Source of the DNA: Adenophora triphylla var. japonica
Lineage: Eukaryota; Streptophyta; Magnoliopsida; Asterales; Campanulaceae
Assembly: GCA_022495995.1 (NCBI GenBank)
Contig: JAFEMH010001477.1
Coordinates: forward strand, 404,209-468,208
DNA length: 64,000 nucleotides
Direction: 5' to 3'
Shown: one piece after another, positions 562-61,529 of the stretch
Layout: each line of letters opens with the position of its first letter
Numbering within the stretch: position 1 is the first letter of the stretch
Notes under the pieces: model-generated
Told to the model about the DNA's origin: nothing
Database searches by the model: none
The model's input: only the letters and a program-made list of their open reading frames with translations
Translations under genes and position numbers: made by a program

Positions 562-705
562 CAGTCTCAATCCGGCCGGACTCCCTTTGCAGACTTTCAG
601 AAATTGCCAGCAAGTCCCTCAAATTCCCAAAGTTTCACAAAACCCCCTGGATTTCAGTCAAAGTCCGACCGGACTCATGCTGAATTTTCACCTATAAATA
701 GAAGG
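562..705 (+). promoter_or_regulatory. LTR promoter of element 1 family: CCGGCCGG-type palindromes and TATA box
   Basis: Two near-copies of the dyad AGTCCGGCCGGACT lie at about 570-583 and 662-675 (second with one change). TATAAATA follows at 693-700, 18 bp after the second dyad. The first copy is followed by CTCCCTTTGCAG, similar to the CTCTTTGCA that follows the different palindrome of family B. In the sister LTR the dyad is at 60028-60041 with TATA at 60061. Confidence 0.7.
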
Positions 706-1140
706 GCTGTCAAAGCCATTTAAAAAAACATTTTTACTCTCCAAAATCACCTCACCCCACGGCCCAAACCAGTTTCACCCCTTCCCGAGCTCCCATTTTG
801 TCTCGATTCGCGTGAAACCTTCATATTTCGATCAAATACGCCCTCCTCCACTCCAAAGCACCATTCCAAACCACTTTCTGTATCCCGTATACACCCCCTG
901 AGCCAAAGGAGTCGACCCTAGCCATAGGTATAACTCCCTCTCTCTAATCTCTTGTTTCGTCTCGGTTTACGCGTCAGTCGCTACAACCGTTTCGAACAAC
1001 GTTATTGAAATGTAGACGCCTCCGTCTAACGGGGTCCGATACGTTTTAGCCCCTCGATCCTCTTCTCTTCCCGTAAGAGAAGTAATCACGGGTTAAAACG
1101 GCGTTCCGACCCCGTTCCGTTTACTTTTTATGTCATTTTA

Positions 1141-1330
1141 CCATTCCGGATCGATCGATCCGTCGATCGTCATTTACTTTTCTGTCATTTATAACTCAGA
1201 GCCGTTTTGGCTCGTCGATCGTCATTTACAACTCCGAGCCGTTTTGGCTCGTCGATCGTCATTTACAATTCCGAGTCGTTTTGGCTCGTCGATCGTCATT
1301 TACGATTCCGGATCGTTTGATTCCGTTGAT
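1141..1330 (+). repeat. 37-bp tandem repeat in U5
   Basis: Three to four copies of a 37-bp unit containing CTCGTCGATCGTCATTTAC and a variable GAGCCGTTTTGG part. GTCGATCG-type segments are themselves near-palindromic. The sister LTR at 60503-60650 has fewer full copies, so the number has changed since the two LTRs diverged. Confidence 0.75.
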
Positions 1331-15419: not shown

Positions 15420-16891
15420 TGTAAGTACCCCAATCTGGATCACCCCCTTTCAAGCACACGGGAAACACCGCAGACTCATCAACGCAGTCTCGACGACCTC
15501 TGGCACTCAAAACCCTCTCAAAACCCCCAACCAAACCAAGGGAGGAGCCTTTCTGGGACAAAAAGGGACAAAAGGACCTTTTGGGAATTTTCAGGAAATT
15601 GGAAAAGCATACATGGTCCGTACGGACCTCTTTGCTTTAATAATTACTGAATCTTCTTAAAGTCCACAATATTCCCTCAAATCCCGGGGAAAATGATTAC
15701 CCTCCTGCAGAGTTGGTCCGTACGGACCTCTTTGCATGTCAAGATGGTCCGTACGAACCTTATTGCTCAGGGAACATCATAATTGCAGAATATTCACCAT
15801 CATCACAGATTCCCTCAAATCGAGGAAAACCAAAAGTCTGGATTACCAGGGAGGTCCGTACGGACCTTCTTGCACCAAATCTGGCACTATAAATAGAGGG
15901 CTCCCCCTCCTCATTTTTACACTCCTCCCACTTCTCTCTTCCTCCCTAGGCCTTCTGGCTTCCCCTCTAAGTCCTCTCGAGGCACTCCCGGCCCCTTTCG
16001 GATCCTTAGAGGCCTTCCGAGCTCCCTTGTGGTGCTCCAAGCCTCCCAGCGCTCCGCGATGCTCCGCGCTGCCGAGGCACTCTTGAGGTACTCTGAGGCC
16101 CCTCGTGGTACTCAGAGGCCTTGCACTGGTCTTTCCACGGTGTCTCGGCTCTTTCCGAGTCAAACCGGCGATCCCAGGCCACGCCGAAACTCTGCCCGAG
16201 TGATCCCTGCGATCCCAACGCACGCCGAACCTCTGCCCGAGTGATCCCTGCGATCCCAACGCACGCCGAACCTCTGCCCGAGTGATCCCTGCGATCCCCA
16301 CGCACGCCGAACCTCTGCCCGAACGCAGCCTGCAACATCAACTCACGCCGAAACTACGTCGCAGACAACCGGTCCCTCCCGAAGCAATCCCGATCCGTAC
16401 CGAAACGCTACTCCGACCTCAAACACTATTCCTCAGCGGAAGACAGACACGAACCAACATTGGTAAGGCTTCCTTCCATTACTATTTCAATACATTTCAA
16501 TACGTAGTGTACAATGTAGACATCCGACACAGCATGCATTTTTAAAAAGCACACACACACACACAACATTTTAAAGGATATTAGGGGTATCCGAAAGACT
16601 CGTTTTACGAGGCGACTCGGGTGAGCTCTAATATTCTAATATTCTCTTCCCGAGGAGTCATCTGACCTCCGAACTCAAAATCTCATCACACAAAAACAGT
16701 TTAAAATTATCTTTAAACTGATGCCCTTTTTCAATGTTTTGGGCTTAATAAAAATGGCGTGGCGACTCTACAAATGCGAAAACAAACGGAGAGACACCTC
16801 CAACTCGGAAAAAACCCGCTGCAAAGAGGGGGGGGGGAAATGCCAGATGCCGGGGCGCGAACGCGCTGCCTCTCGGATCCGGGTAATTTCA
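15420..16891 (+). repeat. 5' LTR of element B
   Basis: Begins TGTAAGTACCCCAATCTGG, ends GGGTAATTTCA. Pairs with 49715-51189. It carries four GGTCCGTACGGACC-type palindromes, a TATA box, a GC-rich R/U5 with about three and a half copies of a 41-bp repeat (16185-16340, TGATCCCTGCGATCCC core), a CA microsatellite at 16551-16562, and the partial primer-site copy at 16760. Confidence 0.95.
15615..15900 (+). promoter_or_regulatory. LTR promoter of family B: GGTCCGTACGGACC palindromes and TATA box
   Basis: Palindrome at 15615-15628, 15715-15728, 15745-15758 (one mismatch) and 15853-15866. TATAAATA follows at 15888-15895, 22 bp after the last copy. Three copies are followed by C(T)CTTTGC or TTCTTGCA. 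The same 14-mer with CTCCTTGCA or CTCTTTGCA occurs upstream of both antisense genes of this element. Confidence 0.8.
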
Positions 16892-21501: not shown

Positions 21502-21730
21502 TGTAAGTACCCAAATCTGGCTCATGCCTTCCGGTTAATTTTCCCGGCAATTCCGGTAATTTTTCCGGTAATTCCCCGGATTTTCCTAAAGTTCCGGAGC
21601 AATTCCGGAACTGTTCCAAGCCTTTTAAGGGCTGAAGGAAATGCTTGGTGATTAAGAAACACGTTTTTCTTAATCCCAAAACCCTTCTAGAAGGCTGCCA
21701 TCTTGCACGTTTCTAGAAGAAGCCAGATCT

Positions 21731-21955
21731 GGCTACTTATGTCGTGCGACATAACCAGCCAGAGAAACCTTCTAGAAACCTGCCACCTTGCATGTTTCTA
21801 GAAGAATCCAGAAGTGGCTACTTATGTCGTGCGACATAACCAGCCAAGAAAAGTTCTAGAACCATGCCACCTTGCATGTTTCTAGAAGGAAAGCAGTCAT
21901 GGCTTGTTATGTCGTGCGACATAACAAGCCCATGCAGGCAGCCTATAAATAGAGG
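21731..21955 (+). promoter_or_regulatory. LTR promoter of family C: TTATGTCGTGCGACATAA palindromes and TATA box
   Basis: The 18-bp palindrome occurs at 21737-21754, 21822-21839 and 21907-21924. The third copy extends to 14-bp perfect arms (flanks GGCTTG and CAAGCC). The first two have GGCT/AGCC outer flanks with two mismatches. TATAAATA is at 21944-21951, 20 bp after the third copy. The copies lie 85 bp apart within a larger direct repeat that also contains TTCTAGAA. Confidence 0.8.
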
Positions 21956-22560
21956 CATTCACCTCTCATTTTAGACACACCTCCTCCACCCCTCAGTCCC
22001 CCTCTATAGGGAATACGCTCCGAAGCCTCCTCTCTCCTCACATACCCCCAAATCACCTCAATCCTACCAAACTAATCAAACACACACTTCCCACACACAC
22101 ACACACTTCCTATACATCAAGAACTCGAGGTTCTCAAGGATCCAAGGCTGAACTCGGTCTCAGGAGGAGGACGCTAGAAGGCTCCTATATCTAACTTGAT
22201 ATAGGAGTTGTGGATCTTGAGGGTAACGAGTTTCTACCCCTTTTCCACTCTCTATTTTCCTTTGAATATCAAATCTATGTGTTACATGCATTGATAATGT
22301 AGTATTCTGATTAAAGTTGCATGCTTTAGCTTCATATTACCCAGATCCACATTTTATTTCATTACATTTCATATAAAATCTCTGTTTTGACTTGGTTTTG
22401 CATGAACACTCAAGATGAGTGTGGATCCCTCATATCCACACCCTCTTGAAGTGTTCATTATCAATAAACATGCTCTCTGAGATTTGTTTGTGAAGTAACT
22501 TGACCATTTTGGTGCCTTGTTACCTCTGCAAATCTCAGTTGTTTGAAGCTTACGCAAAAT

Positions 22561-22613
22561 GGCTTATTATGTCACGCGACATAGGCGGCCTATGTCGCGC
22601 GACATACATAGCC
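22561..22613 (+). repeat. Palindrome made of two palindromes in U5 of element C
   Basis: TATGTCACGCGACATA and TATGTCGCGCGACATA stand side by side, separated by GGCGGCC, with outer flanks GGCTTAT and ATAGCC. The whole 53-bp block is itself an inverted repeat with few mismatches. The equivalent in the 3' LTR is near 36484-36537. Confidence 0.7.
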
Positions 22614-22639
22614 GGTTTGCGAACTCCTTATCTTTTCAG

Positions 22640-23060
22640 CTGCAATCTGATGTTTTCCTTTTCTAATGCACCAATCTGCATTTAAACTAAAACATTTGCA
22701 TACAGAGCAGCATCATTTGCATTAAAAGGATATCTTTTTCACATCTTTGCTTTAATGGTGCATCCTTTGCACTCAAAAAACCCCTTTTCACATTAAGGAT
22801 GCATCTTTTGCATTTAAAACTCATTTTCATACTCAAAATGCATACTTTGCATTAAAAAATCATTCTTTGCCATTTTCATGCATCATTTGTGCATTAAATG
22901 CTATTTTCCAACATAAAAATACATTCTTTACATAAAAATCTTTTCTTTGCACAAAAGGGCATCCCTTGCAACCAAAAGACATTCTTTACACTCCAAAAAT
23001 GCCATCTTTTCACTAAAGTATCATTTTTACATGCATTTCCCCTTTTCCCCAACCTTGGAA
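22640..23060 (+). repeat. Degenerate TTTGCATTAAAA-type repeat in U5
   Basis: Many loose copies of TTTGCATT/TTTGCACT with AT-rich spacers of about 20-30 bp. Also at 36560-36980 in the 3' LTR. No coding sense. Confidence 0.55.
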
Positions 23061-23707
23061 CGGACCGGTGTAAAAGTTCTCATCTTTGCATCGTTCCTTC
23101 CATCAAAGGTTCATGATTTCTTTAGGAAAAGGATAACCTTGAACCCTATATCTCCGATTATCGCTTAAGAATGAGTATGAAGCCTCTATACGAGCTCGAC
23201 CGTCTTAAAGCGTAGGATTGATGGGCTAAGGACATTCCTTCCTAAGGAACCTCATCTTTGACCAAAAGAGAGTCATTCTCTCGATCACGCAAGTCCCGAG
23301 GGTCCCGAGGTTAAAATGCGATGATCACAAGTCATAAGATGAGGACGGGATCATAATCCCAAATACATAAATTCCAAGAAATCCCGAGCGACAACCAACA
23401 AATGGTTTGTACGTCCGGAAGATAACTTGGGACATTCCCCCTTTTACTCTCAAACACATGCACACAAAGAAAGCACGCAAGCAAACACGATTAATGAAAT
23501 CTCGGGAGACTTGCTCCGGCAAGGCACTTTGGGTGAACGCCAAACGTTCTTCCCAAGGGGTAACTTAACCTCCGAACCCATAAAACCTTTTTTCAAAGTT
23601 TTGAGGTAATCAAAATGGCGTGGCGACTCCGTTTTTCAAATAACTCGGATGTCTTCAAACTCGCGTGAATTCCAATAAACAAAAAATTTGGGCACACATT
23701 CACAGTT

Positions 23708-30378: not shown

Positions 30379-30427
30379 TTATGTCACGCGACAAAGCGCG
30401 ATTGGCTACTTATGTCGTGCGACATAA
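30379..30427. promoter_or_regulatory. Two family-C palindromes in the internal region
   Basis: TTATGTCACGCGACAAA at 30379-30395 and the exact LTR form TTATGTCGTGCGACATAA at 30410-30427, both with GGCTAC upstream as in the LTR. By position they would lie upstream of the lost antisense DUF7745-like gene, matching the arrangement in element B at 41574. Confidence 0.6.
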
Positions 30428-30717
30428 CTAGCCACATCGGACATCGAGACATCGGCTGGCTTCTGCTTTCCCCAGGGCACTCCCCGACTTGTCAAAAGCT
30501 GCAAATACCATCCATTCACCTCTCAAATGCATAGGGAATGGTTCATTTACCCCGTATACACTCATGCATTCATTTACAAGCTAAAAATTCATCCAAGTCA
30601 TCCATTCAAACCATTTGTACATACAAAGTAGATCAAGTCCAAAAAGTTGTGCATAAAAAAAATAATAACATGTGTTTTCCCCAAAGGGGTACAATAGCCA
30701 AAAAGTCATAAATGTCT

Positions 30718-33303: not shown

Positions 33304-33365
33304 ATTTTTAATAAATCTGTCCACAGGGCCTGTTATGTCGTGCGACATACTAAGCCCCTGTGGCT
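33304..33365 (-). promoter_or_regulatory. Antisense promoter of the element C PMD gene with the family-C palindrome
   Basis: TTATGTCGTGCGACATAC at 33333-33350 sits in a longer dyad whose outer arms are CCACAGGG and CCCTGTGG. On the minus strand a TATA-like TTTATTAAAAATA lies at 33304-33316, about 17 bp from the palindrome, and the ATG follows at 33160. The palindrome-TATA spacing equals that of the LTR promoter. Confidence 0.6.
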
Positions 33366-37644: not shown

Positions 37645-37649
37645 CACTA

Positions 37650-39935: not shown

Positions 39936-41455
39936 TCATTCCGCGCCGTCTGCGCTTGTCCCCTCGCCATTCTTTCCTTTCTTCCCTCGTCCCCGGCGAG
40001 TCTTCTTTCGCTCTACGTGAACCAACTCTGCGTCTCTCAGTCCGAGATCAGGAGTCCTCCTAGTCGTGTCAAACAAACAAGTCGCTCTCAGAGCATCGTT
40101 CACCCGTGCCTCGGCTCGGATCTCCTCCCTACGAGTCTGCAAAAAGAGGACCTCTCCCTGTCAGTCGGTCAACTCTAGTCTCGTAGTCAAACAAAGTGTC
40201 TCCCGTCACATCCAAAGGGACAGACCAGGCTTCGGCACTCCTAAGGCAATAGCTACTACGGCAACCGGGTCCCAGAATCGCTACACGCCTGCTCTCCAAG
40301 ACCACTTGGGACTGCCCAACACGCCGCTCATACCGGGCCAGTGTACCGAGTCGTCAATACGACCCTCCCCGACGTCTAAGGAGTACCACAGAGGGAAAGC
40401 GGAATACTTCCATACCTCGTAAAATACAAGAAGGCACCTGAAGCCGCCATACAAAGAGGAACTACCTCCGCAGTAGCAAGGTCATCCCGGCCAACAAAGG
40501 CTCCCCGCTTCATCCCAAACCGCCGGAAACAAGCGACGGAATATAGAAGGAAGACCAAGACAAATCTGAACTCGACGACGTAGGACCCTTCCTGCAAGAC
40601 CCTCCTAGTCTCAATCCTCCAGCCGAGGAACCCACCGGCGGATCGATGCGTACTCAAGCCGTGCCATCCATCTCTCCCAGGCGGACTGATCCATATCCAA
40701 CACAAGAGGTCGCTGAGCAAATGACCACAGACTAAACGACGTCGGAGCCTCGGGCATGGCCTGAAGTCTCTCTCGCAGCCACAAGGTGAGCAAAGCGGGG
40801 CTTCCCCCTCTCATGAAATGATCCCCAGTCGCCAGACGGTCGATACCATGAAGAGTCTCCCCCAGCACCAACGGGACAATATCCTCTCCAGCTCTGCAGT
40901 GCCCTACCACATCTAGCAAAGCGCCATCGCAAATGCCAAGGGAGCTGACCAGGAAAAGCGTCGCCATCACGCACAAGGCAAATGCATCCCAAGAGACATC
41001 ACTCTCATCATCAACCATGAACCGCTCCGGCAGCTCAGAAATGTCAATATGACCCGAATCAAGGATCATGCCCTGCACTTCTTCCAACGAAGTACGAAGA
41101 AAGCCTGCAAGCTTCACGCTCACCGCAGCACCACCAATCAAAGGAAGCGAGATGTCCTCCACCTCCGGTCCCCCATCAAAGCCCGAAAATCCTCAAAAGT
41201 GGGCACCATTTCATTGTAGGAGAAGCAATACACATGCCTCCTAACATCCCAGGACTTCGCGGCAGCCCGCAACAAATCCCAATCAGGAACCAACTCCTTA
41301 AAAGACCAAATCGAGCAAAGACGAAACCTTACCTCGAAAGCCCATCTCTGATGCCTCATACGGCGCCGCATCCACGTTTTCAGCTGCTCAAGGAAGTGTG
41401 CTTGCCTCTCCTGTGAAAGCCTCGGCAAAATTCTAGGAACGTACGAAGAATCCAT
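39936..41455 (-). pseudogene. Antisense DUF7745-like gene of element B
   Basis: True ATG at 41455-41453 (MDSSYVPRILPRLSQERQAH). Then WSFKELVPDWDLLRAAAKSW, YNEMVPTFEDFRAL, a one-base loss in a G run near 41160 shifting to a frame with SLPLIGGAAVSVKLAG, FALCVMATLFLVSSLG, IVPLVLGETLHGIDRL and GGSPALLTLWLRERL. Near 40600 and 40400 further shifts; the last part (39936-40142) ends in TRRGRGKKGKNGEGTS, a basic tail as in elements 1 and 3. Order and motifs (LTPT/VPTFED near the N-terminus, the -LLxETxxxxD- then G--LLxxWL- part) resemble DUF7745. No metal site or enzyme motif is visible. It overlaps no sense gene: it converges on integrase. Confidence 0.75.
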
Positions 41456-41545: not shown

Positions 41546-41590
41546 CATTTATCTCCTTCCCAAAAGCAAGGTTGGTCCGTACGGACCTCC
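41546..41590 (-). promoter_or_regulatory. Antisense promoter of the DUF7745-like gene in element B
   Basis: GGTCCGTACGGACC at 41574-41587, the exact LTR palindrome of this element, followed on the plus strand by TCCTTGCA as in the LTR. On the minus strand GATAAATG at 41554-41547 is a TATA-like box 20 bp away, and the ATG is 92 bp further. Confidence 0.65.
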
Positions 41591-41927: not shown

Positions 41928-44860
41928 CTAATCAGACTCCTCAGCATCATCATCCTCGCCAAGGTCCTCCAGAGAGAAGTCGGGCATCCCGGTGAACTCG
42001 CCCGTCACGTCCTCGTCATCAGAGTACCGAGCCCCCTCCGGAGGCTGGTACTCAAAGTACTCAGAAGGATCAAATCCGGCGAAAGGATCAAAGATAGAAG
42101 GCTCTGACGATCCCTCACCCTGTGCATCCTGCTGAGGGAAGAACTGGTAAAGGGTCTGCGGCCTCGGCGCTCCCGAAGACGTCTTGGCATCCATGCTATG
42201 CCGCCCCCGCGAAGGTCCCTCCTGTTGTGGCTCCGGCTCGGCTCTCAGTGGAGGAACATCTACAGAATTCCTCGAAGGCATCGGATCGTACGCCGGCACC
42301 CGCCGCGAAGACCGGCAAGACAGCTTCGACGCCATCTTCTTCGCGAAAGACCGCATCGCCACGTAAGGGCGGGTCAGCATGTCAAAAGCCCTCCCCGGGA
42401 CCTGCACAAGCAAGCAGCCAAAGAAACGCTCATCAATACAGTCATACTCAACAACAAAAAAGAGAAAAATACAAAAAAGATGCCAAGATGGAAAAGAGTA
42501 AGCACACTCACCGGTCTATCAGGATCGACGCGGTAGAGGCGACAGTGAGCCTGCTCGGGGACGGCATGTACACCCTCCTCCTCGAGGAATCCCCACGAAC
42601 ATACGTAAAGTCCGGCCCAGGCACCGGAACCTCTGGGGGACCCTGCGGACCAGCCTCCTCTCCCTCGCCAACACCTGTGGCGTCCTCAACTTCCTCCTCA
42701 CGAAGGCCCCATACTCCTCTCCATACAAAATAAACTCCTCGGCACCCACACCGCCAAGGTACCTCTAAAAATCCAGCACATCCATGTCCCGGGAATCAAG
42801 CATCCCAAAAGGAGGGTCCCTCGGAGCCACGGGAAGCAAACACAGGCCATCTTTGCCGCGTAAGACCCGCTCCCCCAGGTACATGACGTCGCAAGTCAGG
42901 CCCCACAGCATCTTCCGCTGCGCTGTCACCACCGGAGCCCCCTCAAACTCATCAGCCTCATACCGAGCCCACGGGAACAAAATAAACCCCTCCGAGCTAC
43001 CTCTCTCCAGACGCTCCTGTACATCCCCGTAGGCGATGGTGAGCTTCCCCCTGCTGCTCCTCCTCTTCCTCGCCGAACGAGCCCAGCCTAACATCGCAGG
43101 ATACGCAGCTACAGCCCCAGGATCTCTATCCCACGGGAAGCACTGAAAAATCTCGTAGAACCACACCTGTGACAAAAACAGAAAAGGCTCAGTGCAAAAG
43201 AAAACGGAGAAACGACAAGTTGCTAAATCAAAACCAGCAATAAACTCATACCTCCAAAGCAAAGTCAAGACAGGCCAAGGAATCAAGCCACACTCCCCTG
43301 CTAAACCGGTCCAAAGAAAAGTAGAGCTCGGCCAAGCCCGCCTCGCCCCAAGCAATGTCACAAACTCTATCCCGGATCAATCAAGCTCTCCAACGAGCAA
43401 AAGGAGCCGTTAGCCGCGTGGTTCGAGAACAAAGTCTCGGAAAGTGCAAACCACAAAAGGAGCGCGCCGCTGCTCCGCCGTCACCTGGCCGGTACCCCGA
43501 ACATAGGCCCCAATGCTGGCCGTAATCCTCAGCTCCACATCGCTATATAACATCCCCAGACCCCTGCGAGGACGAGGCTCAAAGCCCAGCAGCTCGGTCA
43601 ACACATCATCAGCAATCATATCTCGCCACCGCACCGGCCCTCCTTTGAAGGAAAGCCCGGTAGGCGTCACTGTCACCTCTCCCCAGCTCAGATGGAAGGT
43701 GTGGGTGGTATCCCACCAATACTCAGAAAGGCCAAGGAAGACACTCTTGTTCTTCCTCGTGTCAGAAACCCCGACCAGGTTCTCTACGAACACACCTAAG
43801 CCAGAAGCATAGACCAGCCTCCTGGGACTCGGCCTACCATCCACAGAAATATCCGGCATCCGCTGCCACAACTCAACAACAGCCTCGAGCGATCCCCGAG
43901 TCTTCATCCTCTTGGCCTTCCCAGCCATGAGCCCCTCATCCTGCAGGTAAACACAGCAAAGGTACGTCATTCGCAGTACTTAATGCAAAAGAAAATCAAA
44001 ACATACATATCCCGTCACGAATACGGCACACATTGCACATACTTTTCACATATAACCCGTCACAAAACACGGCACATATTGCACATAATTTTCACATGCA
44101 ATTCTCACATATATCTCGTCACGAAACACTGCACATATTGCACATACTTTTTACATGCAACTCAAAACAATGACATGCATTATACATAATTTTTTCCATG
44201 CAGTCCGTCACAAAACACGGCACACACTGTACAGATTTTCTCAACAGAGGGATCAAGCACTACACGACACATTTTCAAAATAAACCGTCACGAAACACGG
44301 CACGTATTGCACATATTTTCCCCACAAAGTCCGTCACCCAAGAACACGGCACACACTGCATAACACATTTTCAAAAATCCGTCCCTACACGGCACACACT
44401 TTCAGACAAAACCCGTCACAAAATACGGCACATGTCACATTTTTTCACAAAATTTGTCACTACACGACAAACTTTTCTCATAATGTACATACATAAATAG
44501 CATTAGGTACAAAACACCAAAGCATGCATTTCATTAGAGAGGCACTTTATTTTCACAAATAAAAGCTAATCTACACATTTCTGCACAAAATACACATACC
44601 CACAATTTTTACATGTCCATTTTTAACAATTCATCAAGAATTTCACAAAAGGCATAAAAAAATAACAAAAATTCAAAAATGCGAAAAACTAAAACCTAGT
44701 TCTAGCATTCAAAAAATTCGAGCAGGGAATCAAAACGGAACGGATTTCTTACCTCCCCGACGTTCCTAGAACGACGATTGTGCACCTCCGGATTTGGATA
44801 CAAGACATCCGGATTCTTTGAAGATGGAACAAACGAGATCCAATTTCTTTGGAGCTCCAT
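41928..44860 (-). pseudogene. Antisense PMD gene of element B, four exons
   Basis: Exon 1: about 44860-44753, ATG start MELQRNWISFVPSSKNPD, donor GAG|GTAAGAA. Exon 2: 43940-43252, acceptor TTTACCTGCAG; encodes MAGKAKRMKTRG, LVYASGLGVFVENL, EYWWDTTHTFHLSWGEVTVT, after a frameshift WGEAGLAELY, ending before GTATGA. Exon 3: 43166-42512, acceptor GTCACAG; encodes VWFYEIFQCFPWDRDP, PWARYEADEFEG, MYLGERVL, one amber codon near 42765 and a frameshift. Exon 4: 42401-41928, acceptor GTGCAG; ends in an acidic tail (EDLGEDDDAEESD). Introns 1-2 and 2-3 are phase 0. The TTHTFHLSWGE and VW-YE-F segments are PMD marks. A gene of this kind may act on chromatin; role here unknown. Confidence 0.75.
43985..44480. 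repeat. Degenerate CGTCAC...ACGGCACA repeat in intron 1 of the antisense PMD gene
   Basis: About nine loose copies of CCGTCACGAAACACGGCACA with spacers ATTGCACATA(C/A)TTTTCACAT, irregular at 35-60 bp. It lies wholly between exons 1 and 2. Plus-strand frames across it are repeat artefacts. 44500-44750 is AT-rich with nothing to report. Confidence 0.7.
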
Positions 44861-45036
44861 CCGTTGCTCGACCACTTCTTGACTGGGTTGTCAACGATTC
44901 CTTCGAGATCCTTCCGCCATTGCAAGCGATTCAAGCGAAAAATGGAAGATTTTGGTTAACAATGGAGGTTTCTTCCTCTCTCTCTCTCTCGGCTGGTTCG
45001 TGAAACTGGGAATGGGAAATGAAGGGGATGCCTCGG

Positions 45037-45125
45037 CTTTTTAACCCGGTCAAAACCTGGGAACTGTAAAAAACCAACATGGTCCGTACGGACCTCTTTG
45101 CATCCCAGGTTGGTCCGTACGGACC
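45037..45125 (-). promoter_or_regulatory. Antisense promoter of the PMD gene in element B
   Basis: GGTCCGTACGGACC at 45081-45094 and 45112-45125, followed on the plus strand by TCTTTGCA and TTCTTGCA. A minus-strand TATA-like GTTAAAAAG lies at 45045-45037, and the exon 1 ATG is at 44860. The segment is duplicated at 47185-47276 on the other side of the solo-LTR-like insert. Confidence 0.65.
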
Positions 45126-45496: not shown

Positions 45497-47044
45497 TGAT
45501 AAGTGACTATTATATAGTCATTTATCCTTAGATTTATATACTTTTTATTGCATAAAACATCATTTCTCATTTCATTTCATATACTTTTTAGTTCTTTTTT
45601 CATATTTTCTAGATTTTACGCTTTTTGGTATACTTCTTGCATTTAAAGACAGGTTTTAGGTTCATTTTTATCAAAAGGATACTTGGACACTTCAAGGCAA
45701 AAGACATGGAAGAGCACCAACCAAATCAAGCACACAAAGCTAAATTTCAGAAGGAGCGGTCGTGCAGCCAAGATGGAGCGGCCGTGCACTTGGCCTTTTT
45801 CAGGCCATTTGTGGCCCTAAAATATAGAGTGGCCGTGTCTTGAAGAGGGAGCGGCCGTGTCATTATATGGAGCGGCCGTGCAGCTTGGACAGGAGCGGCC
45901 GTGCAAAGTGTCAAGACTTAAATTCACATCTGGCGCCAAGGGTCGCACGGCCGTGCAAATTCCTTGACGCGGCCGTGCAAAACGCGACTGCAGACGTAAA
46001 GGCACCTTTTGATTGCACCCGATTGAAGAGTCTCCTCCTTTTTATAAATAGGACCCTAGTGATCAGTCTTAGATACGAATTCTTAGAGAGAAATTACTGA
46101 TATTAGAGAGATAAAAGATACAAAGATTTATAACAACAATTTTCCAAAGGAGTTTGAAGATCAAAGTCATTATTTGTTCTTGGAATCACTTTGGAGGAAA
46201 AGCAATAAAAGTGAAGCATTATTCTCAGCAATCATAAGTCTTTCTTACTCAATCTCTATTTATACTTTTCTGTTTATTTATGGCTTGTGAGTAATCCCCC
46301 ATATTCTTGGGGTTGGAAACTCAAAAGCATGTTTATTCATCATTTAAAAATGTTTAGTCTTGTCTTCTTTCTTCATCTAAAACAATCTCTTTATATTATT
46401 CTCTAAATGCCTTACATTTTGGCGATATCCAATTTGTATGATTCGATCAATTGAGAGAAGTACCTAGCGGAGAATCTCGATTGACGGAACCATATAAAGA
46501 AACTAGGTTCATTGATCACGAGAGTAGTTCAATGGCCTAGGGATGTTCCTTTAATGGAAAGTATGTTGACTTCCGTCCTTAATGGATTCTTACTAATTAT
46601 GGTCAGCTAGAGATAAGCCGGAATGCCCGTTTGTGACAGGGCGGGGGCAAACATAAACGGATTTCTCAAACAGTTAGGACATAATTAGTGAAGAATACAA
46701 ACGCTATTGTCTTAGCCCGAAATAGCGTAGGCTTAACATACCATCCTTGCTTTTTATGAAAACCTTTTATTTCTAAGACAATGACAATTTGATGAATAAG
46801 AATATGCGTATGATTTCCAATCCCGAGAATGCTTCGTTTTATAAGTTTTCAATTAAAGTATTTTCTGTTTATGCTCTCTCTATTATTCTAAAACAAATTT
46901 TATCTACCCCCAATCTTTTCTATATTTTCTAAAGACAAAAATATCCCTTAAGTAAACCCTGTCTCTGTGGGATCGACTCGTACTTGCACCCGCTATATTA
47001 CAATAGCCCGTGCGCTTGCGGATATAAAATAAATCGTTAGGTTT
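45497..47044 (+). mobile_element. Solo-LTR-like insert with GCGGCCGTGCA repeats
   Basis: Much more AT-rich than its surroundings. Starts TGATAAGTGACTATTATATA. TATAAATAGG at 46043 and a long downstream part ending in CCTGTCTCTGTGGGATCGAC and TTGCACCCGC, text typical of the ends of plant Ty3/gypsy LTRs. No internal region or coding sequence. Upstream of the TATA box are about eight copies of GCGGCCGTGCA or GCACGGCCGTGC (45755-45980). There is no target duplication: instead about 600 bp of host sequence is repeated on both sides. The exact right end (near 47044) is uncertain. Confidence 0.65.
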
Positions 47045-49714: not shown

Positions 49715-51189
49715 CGTAAGTACCCCAACTGGATCAACCCCTTTCAAGCACACGGGAAACACCGCACTCATCAACGCAGCCTTTCGAGACCTCCGGCACT
49801 CAAAACCCTCTCAAAACCCCCACCAAACCAAGGGAGGGGCCTTTCTCTGGGACAAAAGGGACAAAAGGACCTTTTGGGAATTTTCAGAAATTGGAAAAGC
49901 ATACATGGTCCGTACGGACCTCTTTGCTTTAATAATTACCGAATCTTCTTAAAGTCCACAATATTCCCTCAAATCCCGGGAAAATGATTACCCTCTCAGG
50001 CAGAGTTGGTCCGTAATGACTCCTTGCATGTCAAGATGGTCCGTGACGGACCTTATTGCTTTGTGGAACATCATAATTGCAAAATATTCACCATCATCAC
50101 GCATTCCCTCAAATCGAGGAAAACCAAAAGTCTGGATTACTGTGAGGTCCGTACGGACCTTCTTGCACCAAACTGCACTTTAAATAGAGGGCTCCCCTCC
50201 TCATTTTCACACACCTCCCACTTCTCTCTTCCTCCCTAGGCCTTCCGACTTCCCCTCTAAGTCCTCTCGAGGCACTCCCGCCCCTTTCGGATCCTTCCGA
50301 GGCCTTCCGAGCTCCTCAGCGGTGCTCCGAAGCCTCCCGATCGCTCCCGCGACGCTCCCGCGCCGCCCCGAGGCACTCTCGAGGTACTCTGAGGCCCCTC
50401 GTGGTACTCGAGGCCTTGCCTCGGTCTTTCCACCTGTCCCGCTCTTTCCGAGTCAAACCGGCGATCCCAAACCACGCCGAAACTCGCCCGAGTGATCCTC
50501 GCGATCCCAACGCACGCCGAACCTCTCGCCCGAGTGATCCGCCGCGATCCCAACGCACGCCGAACCTCTCGCCCGAGTGATCCTGCGCGATCCCCACGCA
50601 CGTCGAACCTCTCGCCCGAACGCAGCCTCGCAACATCAACTCACGCCGAAACTCGTCCGCGTACAACCGGTCCCTCCCGAAGCAATCCCGATCCGTACCG
50701 GAACGCTACTCCGACCTCAAACACTATTCCTCAGCGGAAGACAGACACGAACCAACATTGGTAAGGCTTCCTTCCATTACTATTTCAATACATTTCAATA
50801 CGTAGTGTACAATGTAGACATCCGACACAGCATGCATTTTTAAAAAAGCACACACACACACACACAACATTTTAAAGGATATTAGGGGTATCCGAAAGAC
50901 TCGTTTTACGAGGCGACTCGGGTGAGCTCTAATATTCTAATATTCTCTTCCCGAGGAGTCATCTGACCTCCGAACTCAAAATCTCATCACACAAAAACAG
51001 TTTAAAATTATCTTTAAACTGATGCCCTTTTTCAATGTTTTGGGCTTAATAAAAACGGCGTGGCGACTCTACAAATGCGAAAACAAACGGCGAGACACCT
51101 CCAACTCGGAAAAAACCCGCTGCAAAGCGGGGGGGAAATGCCAGATGCCGGGGCGCGAACGCGCTGCCTCTCAAATCCGGGTAATTTCA
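49715..51189 (+). repeat. 3' LTR of element B
   Basis: Starts CGTAAGTACCCC (TG changed to CG), ends GGGTAATTTCA, followed by the CAAGC target copy. Palindromes at 49907-49920 and 50146-50159 are intact; those near 50008 and 50036 are damaged; the TATA box has become TTTAAATA (about 50179). Many differences from the 5' LTR in the GC-rich part are CTG versus CTCG or CCG. Confidence 0.95.
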
Positions 51190-51194
51190 CAAGC
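51190..51194. repeat. Right target-site duplication of element B (CAAGC)
   Basis: CAAGC, identical to 15415-15419. Confidence 0.95.
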
Positions 51195-55220: not shown

Positions 55221-55474
55221 GCAGCCGCTTGCGGTTCGGTCTAAAAATCATAAAAATTACCAAATCCTGTCAACAGTTATATTTGTAAATACCAAGATGT
55301 GTCTTGATTAAGTTCTGAAGTAATTTCAACTTTCACTACATTAATACATTCTTTGATGAGTTCAAGCACGATCTACTCTCGACTCACTAACATTAGCAAA
55401 AGTACATCATTTTGTAAAGTACATCTAGTCTGTCTGTGTCGGCAATGAGGGATACAATGACCGGTCACCTAATC

Positions 55475-57043
55475 CTAGTCACTCGTTCCCACTCCCGAAC
55501 TAGCACTCTTCTTCTTCCTCTTCCTTGGTCCTCGGGAGGTCTTTGGCCTAGCTATCTCAAACAGGTCTGTCTCTCGTCGTCCCAACTCAGGAATGCTACG
55601 AGCCGGTGAGTCAACAAATTCGGCAGCTCTCAGTGTCGCCTGGGCAGCCCTCTCCTCTCTCAAGGCTGTCCTCCGGGCTATAACCTCAGGGTCATCCCTC
55701 ATCTTTGCCCTCCTCTCTACGAGTCTCTCAAAATCCGCTGCCGGATTGTCGGTCACGTTGTCTGGGTCAGTCAGCGCCTCAGCATCCCGTAACTCCCGGC
55801 TAGTCTGATCTCCTCTTTGGGTCCCTTGGAAATATGCCTCAATGGTGTGCTAAACCGGCCCCATCTGCTCCCCGTACCAAATAAGATATAAGGTGGACAG
55901 ATATGTGATGCCCCGGGTCTGCCGTATCAGTGTGCGAGCGGGAAAGGCTGCTCCCGAAAAGGCCCTAGCAAAAAATCTGATAGTCTGGCAGTTAGTCATG
56001 TCAAGAGGGATGGCATCTCGGGCGATCTGCTCTCTGAATCTATCAATAACCTGCTGTTGGTAACCATACGGCCTCAGAACAAGTGATGGGATGCTAAATG
56101 ATGAAAAATGCAGTCCCGACAGCCTCACGACAACAGAATCATCTTGTCTGTTGCTCATGGTCTCGAGCCTCCATCCGGGAACCGAATACTGAATGTCCGT
56201 GGTGGTGTACCTAGTCAATCGCCTCTGCCAGCTCTCCTGCGAAGCCTCTCGAGCCACCCGCCTCTGCTGTGTAACCCAGGGTGCTGCAGTCTGCCCTGCG
56301 GGTAATGGGGAGATAAGCCCCAAGCGCTCAAAAAGCCATAATGATAAGAGACTGGGGCTTCCGCGTCCCATGTATAATGACCCTCCAGCCAATCAGTCCA
56401 TCCCATGATATGTCTCTACCAGCAGAATGGGTACTAAGTCTCTCTCTCCCTGCCCGGGCCGAATCTCAGTCAGGGTGGTACCTCGGTGACCCCGCATCTG
56501 CCTAACAACCCCTAGCAGTAAGCCGGAGCATACCCCATCATACACACAGAAGCAGTATAGAGAGATCATGATCAGCATAAAAATGTCCATGGCCGTGGAT
56601 AGGTCAAATAGCTCTGGACGTGATACACCTAGCCGGGCTACCTGGGCCAAGTCAACGAAAGACAGGTCGAGAATCAGATCGGATACCTGCTTTGTGTGTA
56701 ATCCCAAGAAATTGGCCAGCTGCTCGATCAAAGGTCGTGGGTCTCGTGGGAAGACTGCATCTCTAAGCTCAGCTCCCCCAGTCAGTGCGCGGAGCTCCTC
56801 GATTGTGGGTGTGAGGTCGTTGTATGAGAGGGTGAAGACATGCCTCTCGCGGTCCCAATATCTGGACGCGGCCCAGAGAAGATTCCAATCGACTACCCAT
56901 TCCTTTAGTGCCCAAAGGCATCTCAACCCATACCTTTGGTCAATAATCCTCCGATTGTTGTTGTGATGGTGGCGGGTTAGATTGATGAGATCAGAGTGAA
57001 ATTGGCGCTCTTTGGTTTTGGATCTCTCATTGTAGTGCTCCAT
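55475..57043 (-). pseudogene. Antisense DUF7745-like gene of element 3
   Basis: One frame from a true ATG (57043-57041) to TGA at 55475-55477, 523 codons, with two stops: TGA at 56393-56395 (Arg in element B, CGA to TGA) and TAG at 55850-55852. Segments in order: MEHYNERSKTKERQFHSDL, CLWALKEWVVDWNLLWAASR, FTLSYNDLTPTIEELRALTG, a hydrophobic part FMLIMISLYCFCVYDGVCSG, LVPILLVETYHGMD, GSPSLLSLWLFERLGL, an R/E-rich helix, and the basic tail RPKTSRGPRKRKKKSASSG. The pattern WALKE-x-Y-W-x-F-x-LTPT-x-E matches DUF7745 proteins. Two nonsense changes alone break it, so it was intact until recently. Role unknown; the tail suggests the nucleus. Confidence 0.8.
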
Positions 57044-57138
57044 TTTGGGTCAAAAGGTAAATCTTGGGGCTGATTTTGGGGTGGAAGATCGATTTTGAGT
57101 CTGCTGTGACTGCTGGAATGTGTTTTTTACGAGTCTGC

Positions 57139-57314
57139 CTTTTTATAAATGCTGGGGCTTGCTGCCCAAGAAATTCTGTTCCTCAGACTTTCCATGTCGT
57201 ACGACAGGGGCTATCCCCTGATGTCCTGTGTCGTCCGACACAGGATTCCCCCACCAGCTGTCCTGTGTCGTCCGACACAGGGCTCCCCATCAGTCCTGTG
57301 TCATACGACATTGG
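57139..57314 (-). promoter_or_regulatory. Antisense promoter of the element 3 DUF7745-like gene with four palindromes
   Basis: TGTCGTACGACA at 57195-57206, CCTGTGTCGTCCGACACAGG at 57225-57244 and 57262-57281, and the damaged CCTGTGTCATACGACATTGG at 57295-57314. A TATA box TTTATAAAA on the minus strand lies at 57150-57142 and the ATG at 57043. The core GTCGTNCGAC resembles that of family C. Confidence 0.65.
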
Positions 57315-57319
57315 AAGTC

Positions 57320-57765
57320 CCATCAGACACCAGTAAGGGCTGCATCTGCAGCAGTCCCTTAGCAACCCAATACTTGCTCAAAACCTGTCCAAACCTGTCC
57401 AAAAGCACCCAAAACAGTATATATACACTCCCCCTTACTCACCAAACACATGGGAGAGGATTCGGCATGCCCAATGCACCCAAAAGTACACAAATAGCAC
57501 CCAATAAACACCAAACCACAAAAACACCCAACCACAGCAAATGCCATCATTTTTTGCCTTTCTTGGGACGGACTTATGCATATAAATAAACAAGTCTAAA
57601 TACCATAAAGCAAATACTTTAGTTGTTAAATTACAAAATGCAAAAAAAAAAAATTAATAATAATAATTGTTTTACAATCCAAAAGCAATAGAATAGTGCA
57701 TGCATTATCCTTCTCTCTCTCTATCCCTAAGAGTCCTAAAGCATGACAAAAGGGGACTGCCATGA
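57320..57765. other. Spacer between the two antisense genes of element 3
   Basis: AC-rich sequence (CCAAACCTGTCCAAA repeated, CACCCAAAACAGTATATATA) then A-rich. No gene seen. The antisense PMD transcript would end here. Confidence 0.5.
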
Positions 57766-59533
57766 TCACTCCAACTCGGAGTCGTCACCAGAATCCTCTC
57801 CGCTCTCCTCGGAGCCGCTATCCTCCTGGCCGTCGCCTCCCTGCTCCTCAGAGCCGCTCTGCTCTCCGCCCTCCTGCTCCTCATGGATCTCGCCATCAGA
57901 GTCATCGTCCTCCTCATCCAGGGCCCAAGGCTGGGGCTCGCCGTAATATCCATGCCACTGGGGCACTGTGGAGAAAGGGGGCTGGTAGGGATCGTCCTCG
58001 TCATCATCATCGTCAGGCTGGGGTTGCTGGCTCGAGCCACCCGCCTGTGAGCTAGATGGATCCAAAGTTGGTCTAGGCCTCTTCTTGGGAGGCACAACGT
58101 CACTAGGCTGGGAGCTGCATTTCCCCTTCCAATGCTCCGCACTCTTCTGGAACTGGCGTAGCATCTTGACAGCCCCGGTGAGCACCTTGGCCACCACCCT
58201 GTAGGTCTTGACCGAAACCTGTTGAATGGAAAGAAAAAAAAAAGAAGGTCGTCAGAAGCAGTGAATATAGGCAGTAATGCAGTAATAAGACAGGAATAAA
58301 GCAGAAAGATAAAGGGAGCTCACAGAAGTAGTCCCACGAGACAGCCGCAAGTTGGGGTGAGTCTCTGACATGTCGAAGAAAGAGCGGCGAATGACGCCCC
58401 CGGTCTCATACTCAAAGAAATGAGGAGGCATCGATATCTGTACCCCCGCTGCCCTCCTGGCAGCCATGACCTGAGGAGTCAGCAAGAGTGAAGACGAACT
58501 GGCCGTAGTCCCCATCAACCGACAGCACCGCGGCATCAATGCCCGTCCACAAGCGCTCTAAATCAGGGAGAGCCCGAGTATACCAGATCCCCTCAGGAGG
58601 ATCGTGAGGGACGCGTGCGGCTGCACCATGTCCGTGCTGTCTGTACACTCTCTCCCCCAAATATAAGGCATCGCCCTCCAAGCCAACCAAAAACCTCCTA
58701 GTGCGGGTCACCAAGGCAGCATCCCCAACAACATCCTCATCATATCTGCCATGCCATGGGAACAAGCTCAGCCTAGCCGGGGTACCCCTCAGGGCAATCA
58801 TAGGGTCCTCATAGCAGGCCGTCCTCCAGGGCTTCGCCCCATCCACCCTCCAGCTCTGCCTAGCCTAAAAGGTCCACCTGCGAATGGCGAGAAACAGATC
58901 TGCGATAATCCCGTCGGCTACAGCCCAAGCGTAACAGCTGAAGACCTCATAGGCCCATACCTGAAACAAAGGACAAAAAGCTTTCAGTGTACATCAGCAT
59001 TGATAGATTGATAATAGAAAAGACAGTGCAGCAGTCAATATGCGAATAATAGAAGAGCATACCTCCAAAACCGTCTGATAGCAATCCAAAGAGGTCACCG
59101 TGCCTCTGCTCACCTCATCCAGAGCTCTGTATACCTGAGCCAAGCCGGCCTCGCCCCACGAAAAGGTGGAGACCTCGCCCCAGTCTCGAAGAGGCTCCAA
59201 TTGAAGGGTCAGTGCCGTAGTGGAGGCATTGCAGAACAGGGTATCAGAGAAGCCAGCCCAGGCGAATGCTCTCGCCAGCTGCTCAGCTGTGACTGCGGCC
59301 TCGCCCCCAGAGTAGAGACGGCACTGCTGCGATAACGCCGAGTGCAGGTCCCCCAATGGAACCCCATTGCCCTTCAGGCGAAGGGTCAGGCCGGTCAATC
59401 CCCTAATAGCATTCGGGCTCAGGACCCCGAGATCCTCAGAAAAGATGGGTCTGCCTGTAAACCGCAGACCTGTGATAGCAGTAAAATTGTAGGGAGTAAT
59501 AGTAGACTCCCCCAAGACAGATGAAAGGTGTGG
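57766..59533 (-). pseudogene. Antisense PMD gene of element 3, 5' end cut off
   Basis: Exon a: 59533-59063, starting in HHTFHLSWGESTITPYNFTA at the element 4 junction, with GEAAVTAEQLARAFAWAGFS, FSWGEAGLAQVYRALDEVSR, and ending YQTVLE before GTATGC. Exon b: 58960-58324 after acceptor TTTGTTTCAG, VWAYEVFSCYAWAVADG, one amber codon near 58866, LFPWHGRYDEDVVGD, ALYLGERVYR, a frameshift near 58510, LTPQVMAARRAAGVQI, FFEYETGGVIRRSFFD. Exon c: 58218-57766 after acceptor CATTCAACAG, VAKVLTGAVKMLRQFQ and a long acidic Ser/Glu/Asp tail. All three exon joins keep phase 0. FSWGEAGLA-x-RALDE-SRG-x-VWAYE is the PMD signature. The first exon is lost to element 4. Confidence 0.8.
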
Positions 59534-61529
59534 TGTAAGTATTCAAATCCGGATCGTCAAAATCCGTCAGAAAGTTAACCGAAATCCGTTAACTGGCCCG
59601 CTCCAGGTTAACCAGAACTCGTTAAACTTCCCGTTGCCAAGCCAACGAGACGTCCCGGGACTGCCCCATGCATCCCGACGTCGAAGCATACTAAACACGT
59701 GTCATCTCACGTAAAAGTATGGCTTTCCTTGAAAAACGCACTTTCCCGCACTTTCCGGGGGCATTTTGGACATTTTCCGGACTGTTATTTTAAAAAACGG
59801 ACAAAACTGGGACCGGGGAACGAACTCCCACGCATTTGGTGAGTCATGGGACACGTGGCAGCCATGCCACAGCCCACCCATCACCTTTCAATCAGAAATC
59901 AAAGGGAAAAGACTAAAATACCCCTGGTATACAAATAAAGTCCTACGACTCCCTGTGCACATTTTCTGAAATTGCCAGCAAGCCCTCCAAAATTCCAAAA
60001 TACCACAAAACCCTGAAAAACAGTCTAAGTCCGGCCGGACTCTTACTGCAATTTTCACCCTATAAATAGAAGTGGCTGTCAAAGCCAAAAGGAGGAAGGA
60101 ATTAACTCAAAAACTCACCTCTCATACGGCCCAAACTGATTTCACCCCTCCCGAGCTCCCGTTTTGCCTCGATTCGCGTGAAACTTCCGTATTTCGATCA
60201 AATACGTCCCTCATCGCTACGAAACACCGTTTCAAACCTCTTTCTGTGTCCCGTACACACCTTCCGAGCCAAAGGAGTCAACCCTAGCCATAGGTATAAC
60301 TCCCTCTCTTTAAATCTCTCGTTTCATCTCGGTTTACGCGCCAGTCGCTATAACCGTTTCGAACACCGTTACTGAAATGTAGACGCCTCCGTCTAACGGG
60401 GTCCGATACGTTTTAGCCCCTCGATCCTCTTCTCTTTCCGTAAGAGAAGTAATCACGGGTTAAAACGGCATTCCGACCCCGTTCCGTTTACTTTTTCTGT
60501 CATTTACCATTTCGGATCGTTCGATCCGTTGATCGTCATTTACTTTTCTTTCATTAACAATTCCGAGTCGTTTTGGCTTGTTGATCGTCATTTACAACTC
60601 CGAGCCGTTTGGCTCGTCGATCGTCATTTACGATTCCGGATCGTTTGATTCCGTTGATACTGCTTTAAATACTGTCATTTACAAAGTCCGACCCGTTTGG
60701 ATCGTGATAGTATTTACTTTTCAAAGTCCGAGTCGCAACCCGATTCGTTGATTGCATATCATTTAAAACGCTTTTTTCCCATAAAAATCGTTAACAATGT
60801 AATGCCCGGTTCAAAATCGGAGTTCGTCCTTCGAACTCTCTTTCAAAACGCGCGAAATGACGTTTGGCATCCGAACGCTCATCTTTCAAACTAAAAGCCG
60901 CTATTTGACATTCAAAATCATTTAATACGTTTTTTTCCGTAAAAATCGTTAACAATGACTCGCCCGGTTCAAAACCAAAAGTTCGTCATTCGAACTCCTT
61001 TTCTAACTCAAATCGACGTTTGCCACGCAAACGCTCATTTCCGTCTCAAAACCGACGTTTGTCATTCAAACGATCGCTTTTTCAAAAGATCACCTAATCA
61101 ACGTTTGACATTCAAACCAAGATTAAGCTTGTCATTCAAGCCCCCATTTCAAAACACACACACACACACACATGATTTCGAGAAAGGTAGAAAGACTCGT
61201 CATGCGAGGCGTTTCGGGTGATCTCGTAATACTCTTCCCGAAACGTAACGTGACCTCCGTACCTAACAATCTCTGGTACTAAAAAGCTTTTTACTCGTTT
61301 TTGCTACCAATAAAAATGACCCCCGTTTTCAAAGCCTTTTCCTAAGTTTTTGCTACCAATAAAAATGACACCATTTTCACAAAAGCCGTTTCTCAACGTT
61401 TGGGCTCAAAATACAAAAAGCGCGTGGCGACTCCTCATTTTTTCCTTCCCATGAAGCGAGGTCTCAGACACCAACCCTCCGCGAAAGACAACCGCGTTTC
61501 GCGCCCGTGCGAAATCCCAGGTAATTTCA
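59534..61529 (+). repeat. 5' LTR of element 4
   Basis: TGTAAGTATTCAAATCCGG start, ATTTCA end, 1996 bp, aligning with 166-2231. Contains the palindrome/TATA promoter, fewer copies of the 37-bp unit (60503-60650), the dyad series (60855-61145), a CA run at 61156-61173 and the partial primer-site copy TGGCGACTCC at 61425. Confidence 0.9.
60028..60068 (+). promoter_or_regulatory. LTR promoter of element 4
   Basis: AGTCCGGCCGGACT at 60028-60041 (perfect dyad), then CTTACTGCA, then TATAAATA at 60061, 20 bp from the dyad. An eroded copy (AGTCCTACGACTCCCTGTGCA in two parts) lies near 59939. Confidence 0.7.

Follow-up and report, generated by a model that had tools for sequence, protein, structure and literature searches.

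Sireviruses (Ty1/copia) carry family-specific palindromes upstream of the TATA box of the long terminal repeat (LTR) and of the ENV gene, and Table 3 of the report on them covers 13 elements, nine with ENV and linker copies (PMC2829016). In the sections of that report dealing with the boxes, a regulatory role was proposed, not shown (PMC2829016). In another study, an excess of small RNAs was found at the palindromes of maize Sireviruses, and evidence was cited that they define a cis-regulatory region (PMC10760457). Here, we analyzed 64,000 nucleotides of DNA from Adenophora triphylla var. japonica (contig JAFEMH010001477.1, positions 404,209 to 468,208 of the forward strand; "the window"), a nest of plant Ty3/gypsy retrotransposons of the Tat type. 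Family-specific CpG palindromes (boxes) stand shortly before the TATA boxes of these LTRs and, in two families, recur in the same form at the promoters of antisense accessory genes, which are related to the PMD and DUF7745 families.

The DNA transposon Spm, of another class, encodes TnpA, which binds to a short motif repeated at its own promoter. The VANC proteins of VANDAL elements bind family-specific motifs, which, like the boxes described here, are short and repeated in noncoding regions of an element that also carries a fast-changing accessory gene (PMC5735166, PMC10398659). However, VANDALs belong to another element class, their motifs (YAGTATTAY, AGTTGTCC) are not palindromic, and binding by VANC21 was demonstrated by chromatin immunoprecipitation sequencing and electrophoretic mobility shift assay, whereas the present boxes are known from sequence alone (PMC5735166, PMC10398659). 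Among Tat elements, gene23 of Grande has its own promoter and encodes a nuclear protein (PMC7264820). The passages on antisense promoters in the Grande and Retand reports describe no LTR-like motif there (PMC7264820, PMC11963269), and in Retand almost every cluster codes for TRP28 instead of PMD (PMC11963269). PMD is found in 57% of Ogre elements (PMC6317226), and Gypsy elements alone encode the PMD-A clades (PMC5418596). The PMD proteins MAIN and MAIL1 are needed for the expression of genes with a promoter motif (CATGCAGTTT in MORC1), and this DOWN motif is present in 25 of the 26 genes down-regulated across all main, mail1 and pp7l backgrounds studied (PMC7156037, PMC9899485). These are, however, host genes, and direct binding was not shown by the authors in the parts of these reports on the motif (PMC7156037, PMC9899485). 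In open-licence PubMed Central text, no title or abstract start among the matches listed reports that LTR and antisense promoters share a box in Tat elements, and no paper on DUF7745 was found; a text search for CATGCAGTTT gave, among the matches listed, titles that looked unrelated.

Palindromes before the LTR TATA boxes

The elements are referred to here as A1 and A4 (family A), B, C and element 3. Four box forms have CG-NN-CG with symmetric flanks in common and are otherwise family specific: GTCCG-NN-CGGAC in family A, GGTCCG-TA-CGGACC (GGTCCGTACGGACC) in B, the 18-bp TTATGTCG-TG-CGACATAA (TTATGTCGTGCGACATAA) in C and, as a fourth form, TGTCG-KA-CGACA (TGTCGKACGACA type) in element 3. The LTRs and their boxes are as follows.

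569..582, plus strand: family A box, upstream copy in the 5' LTR of A1, with 1 mismatch
662..675, plus strand: family A box, TATA-proximal, in A1, with 1 mismatch; TATAAATA at 693, 24 bp from the box centre
15420..16891, plus strand: 5' LTR of B; target duplication CAAGC
15615..15628, plus strand: B box GGTCCGTACGGACC, first U3 copy
15715..15759, plus strand: pair of B boxes 31 bp apart, 15715 exact and 15746 with 1 mismatch
15853..15866, plus strand: B box, TATA-proximal; TATAAATA at 15888, 28 bp from the box centre
21502..23704, plus strand: 5' LTR of C; target duplication ACACT
21737..21924, plus strand: three C boxes TTATGTCGTGCGACATAA (21737, 21822, 21907), 85 bp apart; TATAAATA at 21944
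35435..37643, plus strand: 3' LTR of C with boxes at 35666, 35753 and 35838; TATAAATA at 35872
49715..51189, plus strand: 3' LTR of B with boxes at 49907, 50008 (3 mismatches) and 50146; TATA mutated to TTTAAATA
60028..60041, plus strand: family A box AGTCCGGCCGGACT in the LTR of A4; TATAAATA at 60061, 26 bp from the box centre

In all six LTRs of families A, B and C, a box is centred 24 to 28 bp before the TATA box: 24 bp in A1, 26 in A4, 28 and 26 in the 5' and 3' LTRs of B, and 28 and 25 in those of C. The gap from box edge to TATAAA is 17 bp in A1, 19 in A4, 21 in the 5' LTR of B, 19 in its 3' LTR (one of the six, with a mutated TATA box, TTTAAAT), and 19 and 16 in C. A preliminary description of this sequence had placed a family-specific CpG palindrome about 20 bp before the TATA box in each family. 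This holds for A, B and C (edge gaps of 16 to 21 bp) and fails for a further LTR-like piece, insert F, described below; the spacings given there for five LTRs (18, 20, 22, 20 and 17 bp) agree with ours if the count is shifted by one. Families A, B and C thus each have what the Sireviruses have, a family-specific, repeated palindromic box upstream of the LTR TATA box.

Ten B sites are exact (15615, 15715, 15853, 41574, 45081, 45112, 47232, 47263, 49907 and 50146), and two are imperfect (1 mismatch at 15746, 3 at 50008); in the 3' LTR, an inserted base disrupts the copy that corresponds to 15746. Several differences between the B LTRs (15420-16891 and 49715-51189) resemble CTG/CTCG exchanges and may be base-calling errors, so that single box mismatches need caution. 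Seven C sites are exact (21737, 21822, 21907, 30410, 35666, 35753 and 35838), including all six copies of the 18-bp core upstream of LTR TATA boxes, and two are imperfect (33333, with 1 mismatch, and 30379, with 4). Family A has one exact site, 60028; site 662, previously listed as an instance of the A form, departs from it by one base, as does 569.

The boxes are real and non-random, and their presence, family-specific sequence, position and excess over chance are matters of observation. The window contains 19 perfect palindromes of at least 14 bp, 14 of them with a central CGNNCG, compared to means of 3.35 (maximum 10) and 0.17 (maximum 2), respectively, in 60 order-1 Markov sequences. The 14 are made up of 11 A or B boxes, two variants of the C box (22591/36516) and a palindrome at 1147. 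Near-matches to the B box (up to 3 mismatches) number 15 against 1, 2 and 0 in three shuffles, and those to the C box (up to 4 mismatches) 13 against 0, 0 and 0. The A box, with 4 against 2, 0 and 2, is not above chance by count, and its case rests on position in two LTRs. B sites with up to 2 mismatches occur nowhere in the window outside LTRs and antisense promoters; those with 3 mismatches elsewhere are 13685 (A1), 31292 (C) and 42638 (B), where the same three shuffles gave 1, 2 and 0.

Promoter windows, defined as the 350 bp before each promoter and covering 4563 of 64000 bp in total, hold 24 of the 32 symmetric CGNNCG sites (CGNNCG plus three symmetric flanking pairs) but only 10 of the 167 other CGNNCG sites. 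The p value of 1.5e-16 is descriptive only, as the sites had been seen before these windows were drawn and the copies of an LTR do not count as independent; the windows include insert F, a duplicated B promoter and the C pair at 30379/30410. The eight symmetric sites outside them are 1152, 8799, 16858, 22596, 36521, 50485, 51156 and 60518. A less circular test starts from the TATA box. Five of the seven strict TATAAATA sequences on the plus strand have a symmetric CGNNCG site centred 20 to 32 bp upstream, the other two being in insert F (46043) and at 57581; with the looser pattern TATAAAW, 5 of 16 plus-strand sites have such a box.

Other features of the LTRs were noted. Between box and TATA box, TGCA is present in four of six LTRs (15867-15887, 21925-21943, 50160-50178 and 60042-60060, in the 5' LTR of B, the 5' LTR of C, the 3' LTR of B and A4, respectively) and absent in A1 and the 3' LTR of C. 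It resembles part of the DOWN motif CATGCAGTTT, a likeness of four bases noted post hoc. Each U3 region of C (21685-21887 and 35613-35818) has six TTCTAGAA sites, which we take to resemble halves of heat-shock elements. The palindrome at 1147 (CGGATCGATCGATCCG) is a further CG palindrome of the A1 LTR, 3' of its TATA box; the A4 counterpart, at 60513, is imperfect.

The same boxes at antisense promoters

In B and C, the box form of the LTR is reused at antisense promoters (PMD and DUF7745-like genes). The corresponding features are as follows.

30379..30427, minus strand: pair of C boxes 31 bp apart, beyond the 3' end of the PMD gene; 30379 with 4 mismatches, 30410 exact
30716..33160, minus strand: antisense PMD gene of C, broken into several frames; ATG at 33160
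33333..33350, minus strand: C box at the PMD promoter, with 1 mismatch; TATTAAA 28 bp from the centre
39936..41455, minus strand: antisense DUF7745-like gene of B, broken; ATG at 41455; similar to the element 3 and A1 copies
41574..41587, minus strand: B box at the DUF7745-like promoter; ATAAAT 28 bp from the centre
41928..44920, minus strand: antisense PMD gene of B; start codon tentative
45081..45125, minus strand: pair of B boxes 31 bp apart at the PMD promoter; TTAAAAA 43 bp from the centre; duplicated at 47232/47263
55475..57043, minus strand: antisense DUF7745-like gene of element 3, with one in-frame stop; ATG at 57043
57195..57310, minus strand: four element 3 boxes (TGTCGKACGACA type, the last degenerate) at the DUF7745-like promoter; TATAAA 53 bp from the nearest centre
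57766..59533, minus strand: antisense PMD gene of element 3, cut by the A4 LTR

Boxes lie 119 to 173 bp upstream of the start codon at all four antisense gene starts in the window, namely those of the PMD (start tentative) and DUF7745-like genes of B, the PMD gene of C and the DUF7745-like gene of element 3. The C pair at 30379/30410 was left out of this count, as only the boxes themselves mark a promoter there. From box centre to TATA-like box, the distance is 28 bp at the B DUF7745-like and C PMD genes, 43 bp at B PMD and 53 bp in element 3. In B, the matches listed in the preliminary description at 41574 and 45081/45112, before both antisense genes, are exact, and the duplicates at 47232/47263 can be added. 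For C, 30410 is exact, 33333 nearly so, and 30379 has 4 mismatches. Element 3 does have its own form before its DUF7745-like start (57195, 57229, 57266 and the degenerate 57299, spaced by 34, 37 and 33 bp). The placement of extra copies upstream of an extra gene is again Sirevirus-like at the B and C antisense promoters, with antisense genes and no ENV.

The C pair sits where B and element 3 have their DUF7745-like promoter. C gave no match to any DUF7745-like query, and, given how the genes are arranged in B and element 3, we infer that the pair is the relic of a lost DUF7745-like promoter. The 31-bp spacing of this pair recurs in the B U3 (15715/15746) and at the B PMD promoter (45081/45112).

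The conserved unit extends beyond the palindrome. In B, GGTCCGTACGGACC-TYYTTGC is constant in eight of nine aligned copies (the duplicates 47232/47263 and the decayed 50008 being left out), and flanks further out mostly differ; the deviating copy, 15746, differs at two bases, one in the palindrome and one in TYYTTGC. In family A, TTTGCA or CTGCA is found on the same side as the B flank in two of three copies. The flank allows 41574, 45081 and 45112 to be oriented, and the TG centre does so for 30410 and 33333. All five orientable boxes stand in the sense orientation of the LTR. This is a hint that they were copied from U3 RNA during reverse transcription, although the evidence amounts to four or five events, with a chance of 1/16 to 1/32. 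The B PMD pair aligns with the B U3 pair over about 60 bp in sense orientation, and the two are probably one copied block, judging from this alignment. The C pair aligns with the C U3 over about 42 bp, also in sense orientation and independently of the B block. The masked alignments behind these two lengths count N against N as a match, and their scores were not used.

Antisense genes and their proteins

Scored on single open reading frame (ORF) pieces, Pfam PMD gave 34.4 bits for B, 33.8 for C and 32.7 for element 3, against a cut-off of 34.9; Pfam DUF7745 gave 22.7 against a cut-off of 26, in element 3 only. The DUF7745-like ORFs of B had no Pfam match, and the A1 and B genes are named by similarity to element 3. 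The DUF7745 piece of element 3 also matches PMD weakly (E 0.0024), so that the two kinds of gene may be related. No DNA-binding domain was recognised in the antisense proteins by Pfam, which returned only PMD and DUF7745, all below cut-offs. Structure predictions of DUF7745-like and PMD pieces (mean predicted local distance difference test, pLDDT, 41 and 47) were too poor for a structure search.

Between B and element 3, identity in pol is 71-87% for reverse transcriptase (RT) pieces and 75% for integrase pieces, compared to 31-40% for DUF7745-like and 35-49% for PMD pieces. Over pieces of different length, PMD identity is 37-48% for B and C, 27-48% for C and element 3, and 35-49% for B and element 3. 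The PMD proteins have acidic C-terminal stretches (C, 30719-30931; B, 41928-42090; element 3, 57769-57990), and in the DUF7745-like proteins these stretches are basic (A1, B and element 3); such ends would suit nuclear regulators.

None of the 147 candidates from a protein search with a piece of B PMD reached E <= 0.001, and the element 3 PMD piece had one weak match among PDB sequences (E 0.54, a designed protein). Scans of viral_contigs with a DNA pattern and with RT and PMD proteins found no relative; there were two RT pattern matches, neither confirmed.

The nest of elements and insert F

The element families of the window point to a plant origin of the DNA. In the gypsy Tat elements Ogre and Retand, the order given is RT, RNase H, second RNase H and integrase (PMC6317226). 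Element 3 (51890-59533), the one element checked in this respect, has the order RVT_1, RT_RNaseH, a second RNase H (RVT_3) and integrase, with the second RNase H between RNase H and integrase as in Tat. This places it with gypsy Tat elements and not with the Ty1/copia Sireviruses. B interrupts the antisense DUF7745-like gene of A1, flanked by the target duplication CAAGC (15415-15419 and 51190-51194), and C interrupts the RT of B, flanked by ACACT (21497-21501 and 37644-37648). In B and element 3, pol is followed by the antisense DUF7745-like gene and the antisense PMD gene; this order is visible through to the 3' LTR in B only, the 3' LTRs of element 3 and A1 lying outside the window. Near 51890, the start of the A1 antisense DUF7745-like gene is fused straight to RT sequence of element 3, and the A1 antisense promoter is therefore missing. 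C (21502-37643) retains a broken PMD gene and boxes, its LTRs are 97% identical, and no RT, RNase H or integrase was matched in it at E 1e-3 with B and element 3 as queries. It is probably young and non-autonomous.

A 612-bp piece of B with the PMD promoter boxes is duplicated at 97% (44886-45496 and 47040-47647) on either side of insert F (45497-47039). Insert F resembles an LTR piece without a clear right end and hence is not a simple insertion; no coding region was found in it.

45755..45979, plus strand: seven AGCGGCCGTGCA-like direct-repeat boxes of insert F; TATAAATA at 46043

All seven lie on the plus strand with at most 2 mismatches to AGCGGCCGTGCA, and there is a weaker box near 45827. 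From the end of the only perfect palindrome among them, at 45945, it is 86 bp to TATAAATA, compared to 63 bp from the end of the nearest box. The suggestion that F is a further palindrome family was rejected, as its box is a direct repeat that is palindromic in one copy and does not stand 20 bp from the TATA box.

Two variant C boxes also lie in each C LTR.

22567..22607, plus strand: two variant C boxes, 3 mismatches each, in the LTR 3' of the TATA box; the same at 36492/36515

As promoter boxes, 22567/22590 were rejected, since they are downstream of the TATA box and no gene start was seen there.

How the boxes may act

A shared operator that couples sense and antisense promoters within a family is the most economical account of these observations. 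The palindromes would be promoter-proximal operators for one dimeric, sequence-specific factor, acting within a family on the LTR promoter, which gives the gag-pol RNA, and on the promoters from which the accessory PMD and DUF7745-like genes are read in antisense. We consider this account probable. Dimer binding is suggested by the dyad symmetry around a 2-bp centre, and activation rather than repression by the position next to the TATA box, mostly in several copies; co-regulation of sense and antisense promoters would follow from the common box. The antisense copies would probably have been copied from U3, in sense orientation, during reverse transcription and then kept by selection.

Several observations weigh against this account. 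The preliminary description held that box position is kept; this is true of the LTRs (24-28 bp) and of the two antisense promoters with 28 bp, but B PMD, with 43 bp, and element 3, with 53 bp, depart from the LTR spacing. Both 28-bp cases use weaker TATA-like boxes (ATAAAT, TATTAAA) picked among several variants, and the C pair at 30379/30410 is followed by none of the TATA-like patterns that were looked for. On the minus strand, none of the 10 TATAAAW sites has a box 20 to 32 bp upstream, a test that does not catch the antisense promoters. The five orientable boxes of B and C are reversed with respect to their own promoters, and so the box, if functional, works either way round. The variant C sites 22567/22590 and 36492/36515 stand downstream of the TATA box, where no promoter is known. 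Finally, the match between LTR and antisense boxes that had been claimed within a family is found in B and C and can be compared in these two only, as the A antisense promoter is missing (at about 51890) and the element 3 LTR is outside the window. The sharing thus rests on two families.

The factor could come from the host alone, a different host factor serving each family and also driving its antisense genes, while the element encodes no regulator that binds the box. This is a serious possibility, though short of probable. Insert F, with no coding region found, also has repeated CG boxes before a TATA box, and GTAC within the B box is the core of SBP/SPL sites. To our knowledge, however, no single known site fits all four box forms (no motif library was searched), and the constrained unit (18 bp in C, about 21 bp in B) is long for an ordinary plant site, which two adjacent sites could explain. 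Sireviruses offer a parallel, with family-specific palindromes before TATA box and ENV; comparison of their boxes with PLACE gave mainly stress-related host sites, with no common single-factor site in the part of the report on this comparison (PMC2829016). The half-site CGGAC of A and B is in 5 of the 13 Sirevirus consensus boxes, in the opposite arrangement (PMC2829016). Otherwise the resemblance lies in family-specific CpG palindromes clustered shortly upstream of the LTR TATA box and extra copies 5' of an extra gene, which makes the Sirevirus boxes a close precedent (PMC2829016). They differ in belonging to Ty1/copia elements, with ENV as the extra gene, at least eight copies per element and a CGG-CCG core in 12 of 13 (PMC2829016). 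The present elements are Ty3/gypsy Tat, with antisense PMD and DUF7745-like genes, one to four copies per promoter and CG-NN-CG with GTC..GAC flanks; CGGCCG is found only in A and F, whereas B has CCG-TA-CGG, and C and element 3 have GTCG-NN-CGAC. The Sirevirus palindromes also argue against a mechanism tied to these antisense genes, such as the self-recognition considered next, and leave host factors as a strong rival to it. That alternative has the element encode the factor, as VANC does, the antisense PMD or DUF7745-like protein binding the box of its own family and activating or un-silencing both promoters; we regard it as credible but doubtful. Box and accessory proteins diverge strongly between B and element 3 and pol does not, but accessory genes may simply evolve fast. 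The acidic PMD and basic DUF7745-like ends are in its favor, as is C, which keeps PMD sequence and boxes without detectable pol, and the antisense proteins of Retand are predicted to bind DNA (PMC11963269). On the other side, no DNA-binding domain was found, the Pfam matches, to PMD and DUF7745 only, are all below cut-offs, the structure models are unusable, and PMD similarity does not clearly track box similarity in three or four families, too few for a test of co-evolution. In its boldest form, both antisense proteins would bind only the CG-NN-CG box of their own family, as a key fits its lock, activating or un-silencing their own LTR and antisense promoters; pol-less derivatives such as C would keep box and PMD gene, and the host proteins MAIN and MAIL1 would derive from, or have a common ancestor with, a promoter regulator of retrotransposons. 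This is unlikely.

Two explanations do without a DNA-binding factor. In the first, what counts would be the structure that the palindromes form in RNA or single-stranded DNA, which could, for example, give rise to small interfering RNA or be a target of silencing. Small RNAs are in excess at the palindrome clusters of maize Sireviruses (PMC10760457), and RNA-fold z-scores against shuffles are -8.1 for the C U3, -7.4 for the C pair and for element 3, -5.9 for C PMD, -5.2 and -3.9 for the B U3, -3.5 for B PMD, -2.3 for B DUF7745-like and -1.6 for A1. However, palindromes that are repeated, or long and perfect, are bound to fold well, and to a large extent these scores restate the observation; the A1 fold is weak, and the fixed distance to the TATA box is left unexplained, which makes a structural role improbable. 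A little less probable still is neutral copying, in which template switching moved U3 fragments to the antisense region, where they have no function. The U3 alignments of the B PMD pair (about 60 bp) and the C pair (about 42 bp) and the sense orientation of the five orientable boxes are what such copying would leave. However, the copies stand at gene starts in both B and C, not at random, and four of the six antisense boxes of B and C are exact, duplicates uncounted.

Implications

The wider question is what antisense genes do in plant Ty3/gypsy elements, and what part is played by the PMD domain that they share with the silencing proteins MAIN and MAIL1. A box common to LTR and antisense promoters turns this question into a concrete test, namely which protein binds the box and whether the LTR needs the antisense gene. 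Even with a host factor, a common box coupling sense and antisense transcription would explain how the accessory genes stay coordinated with the element.

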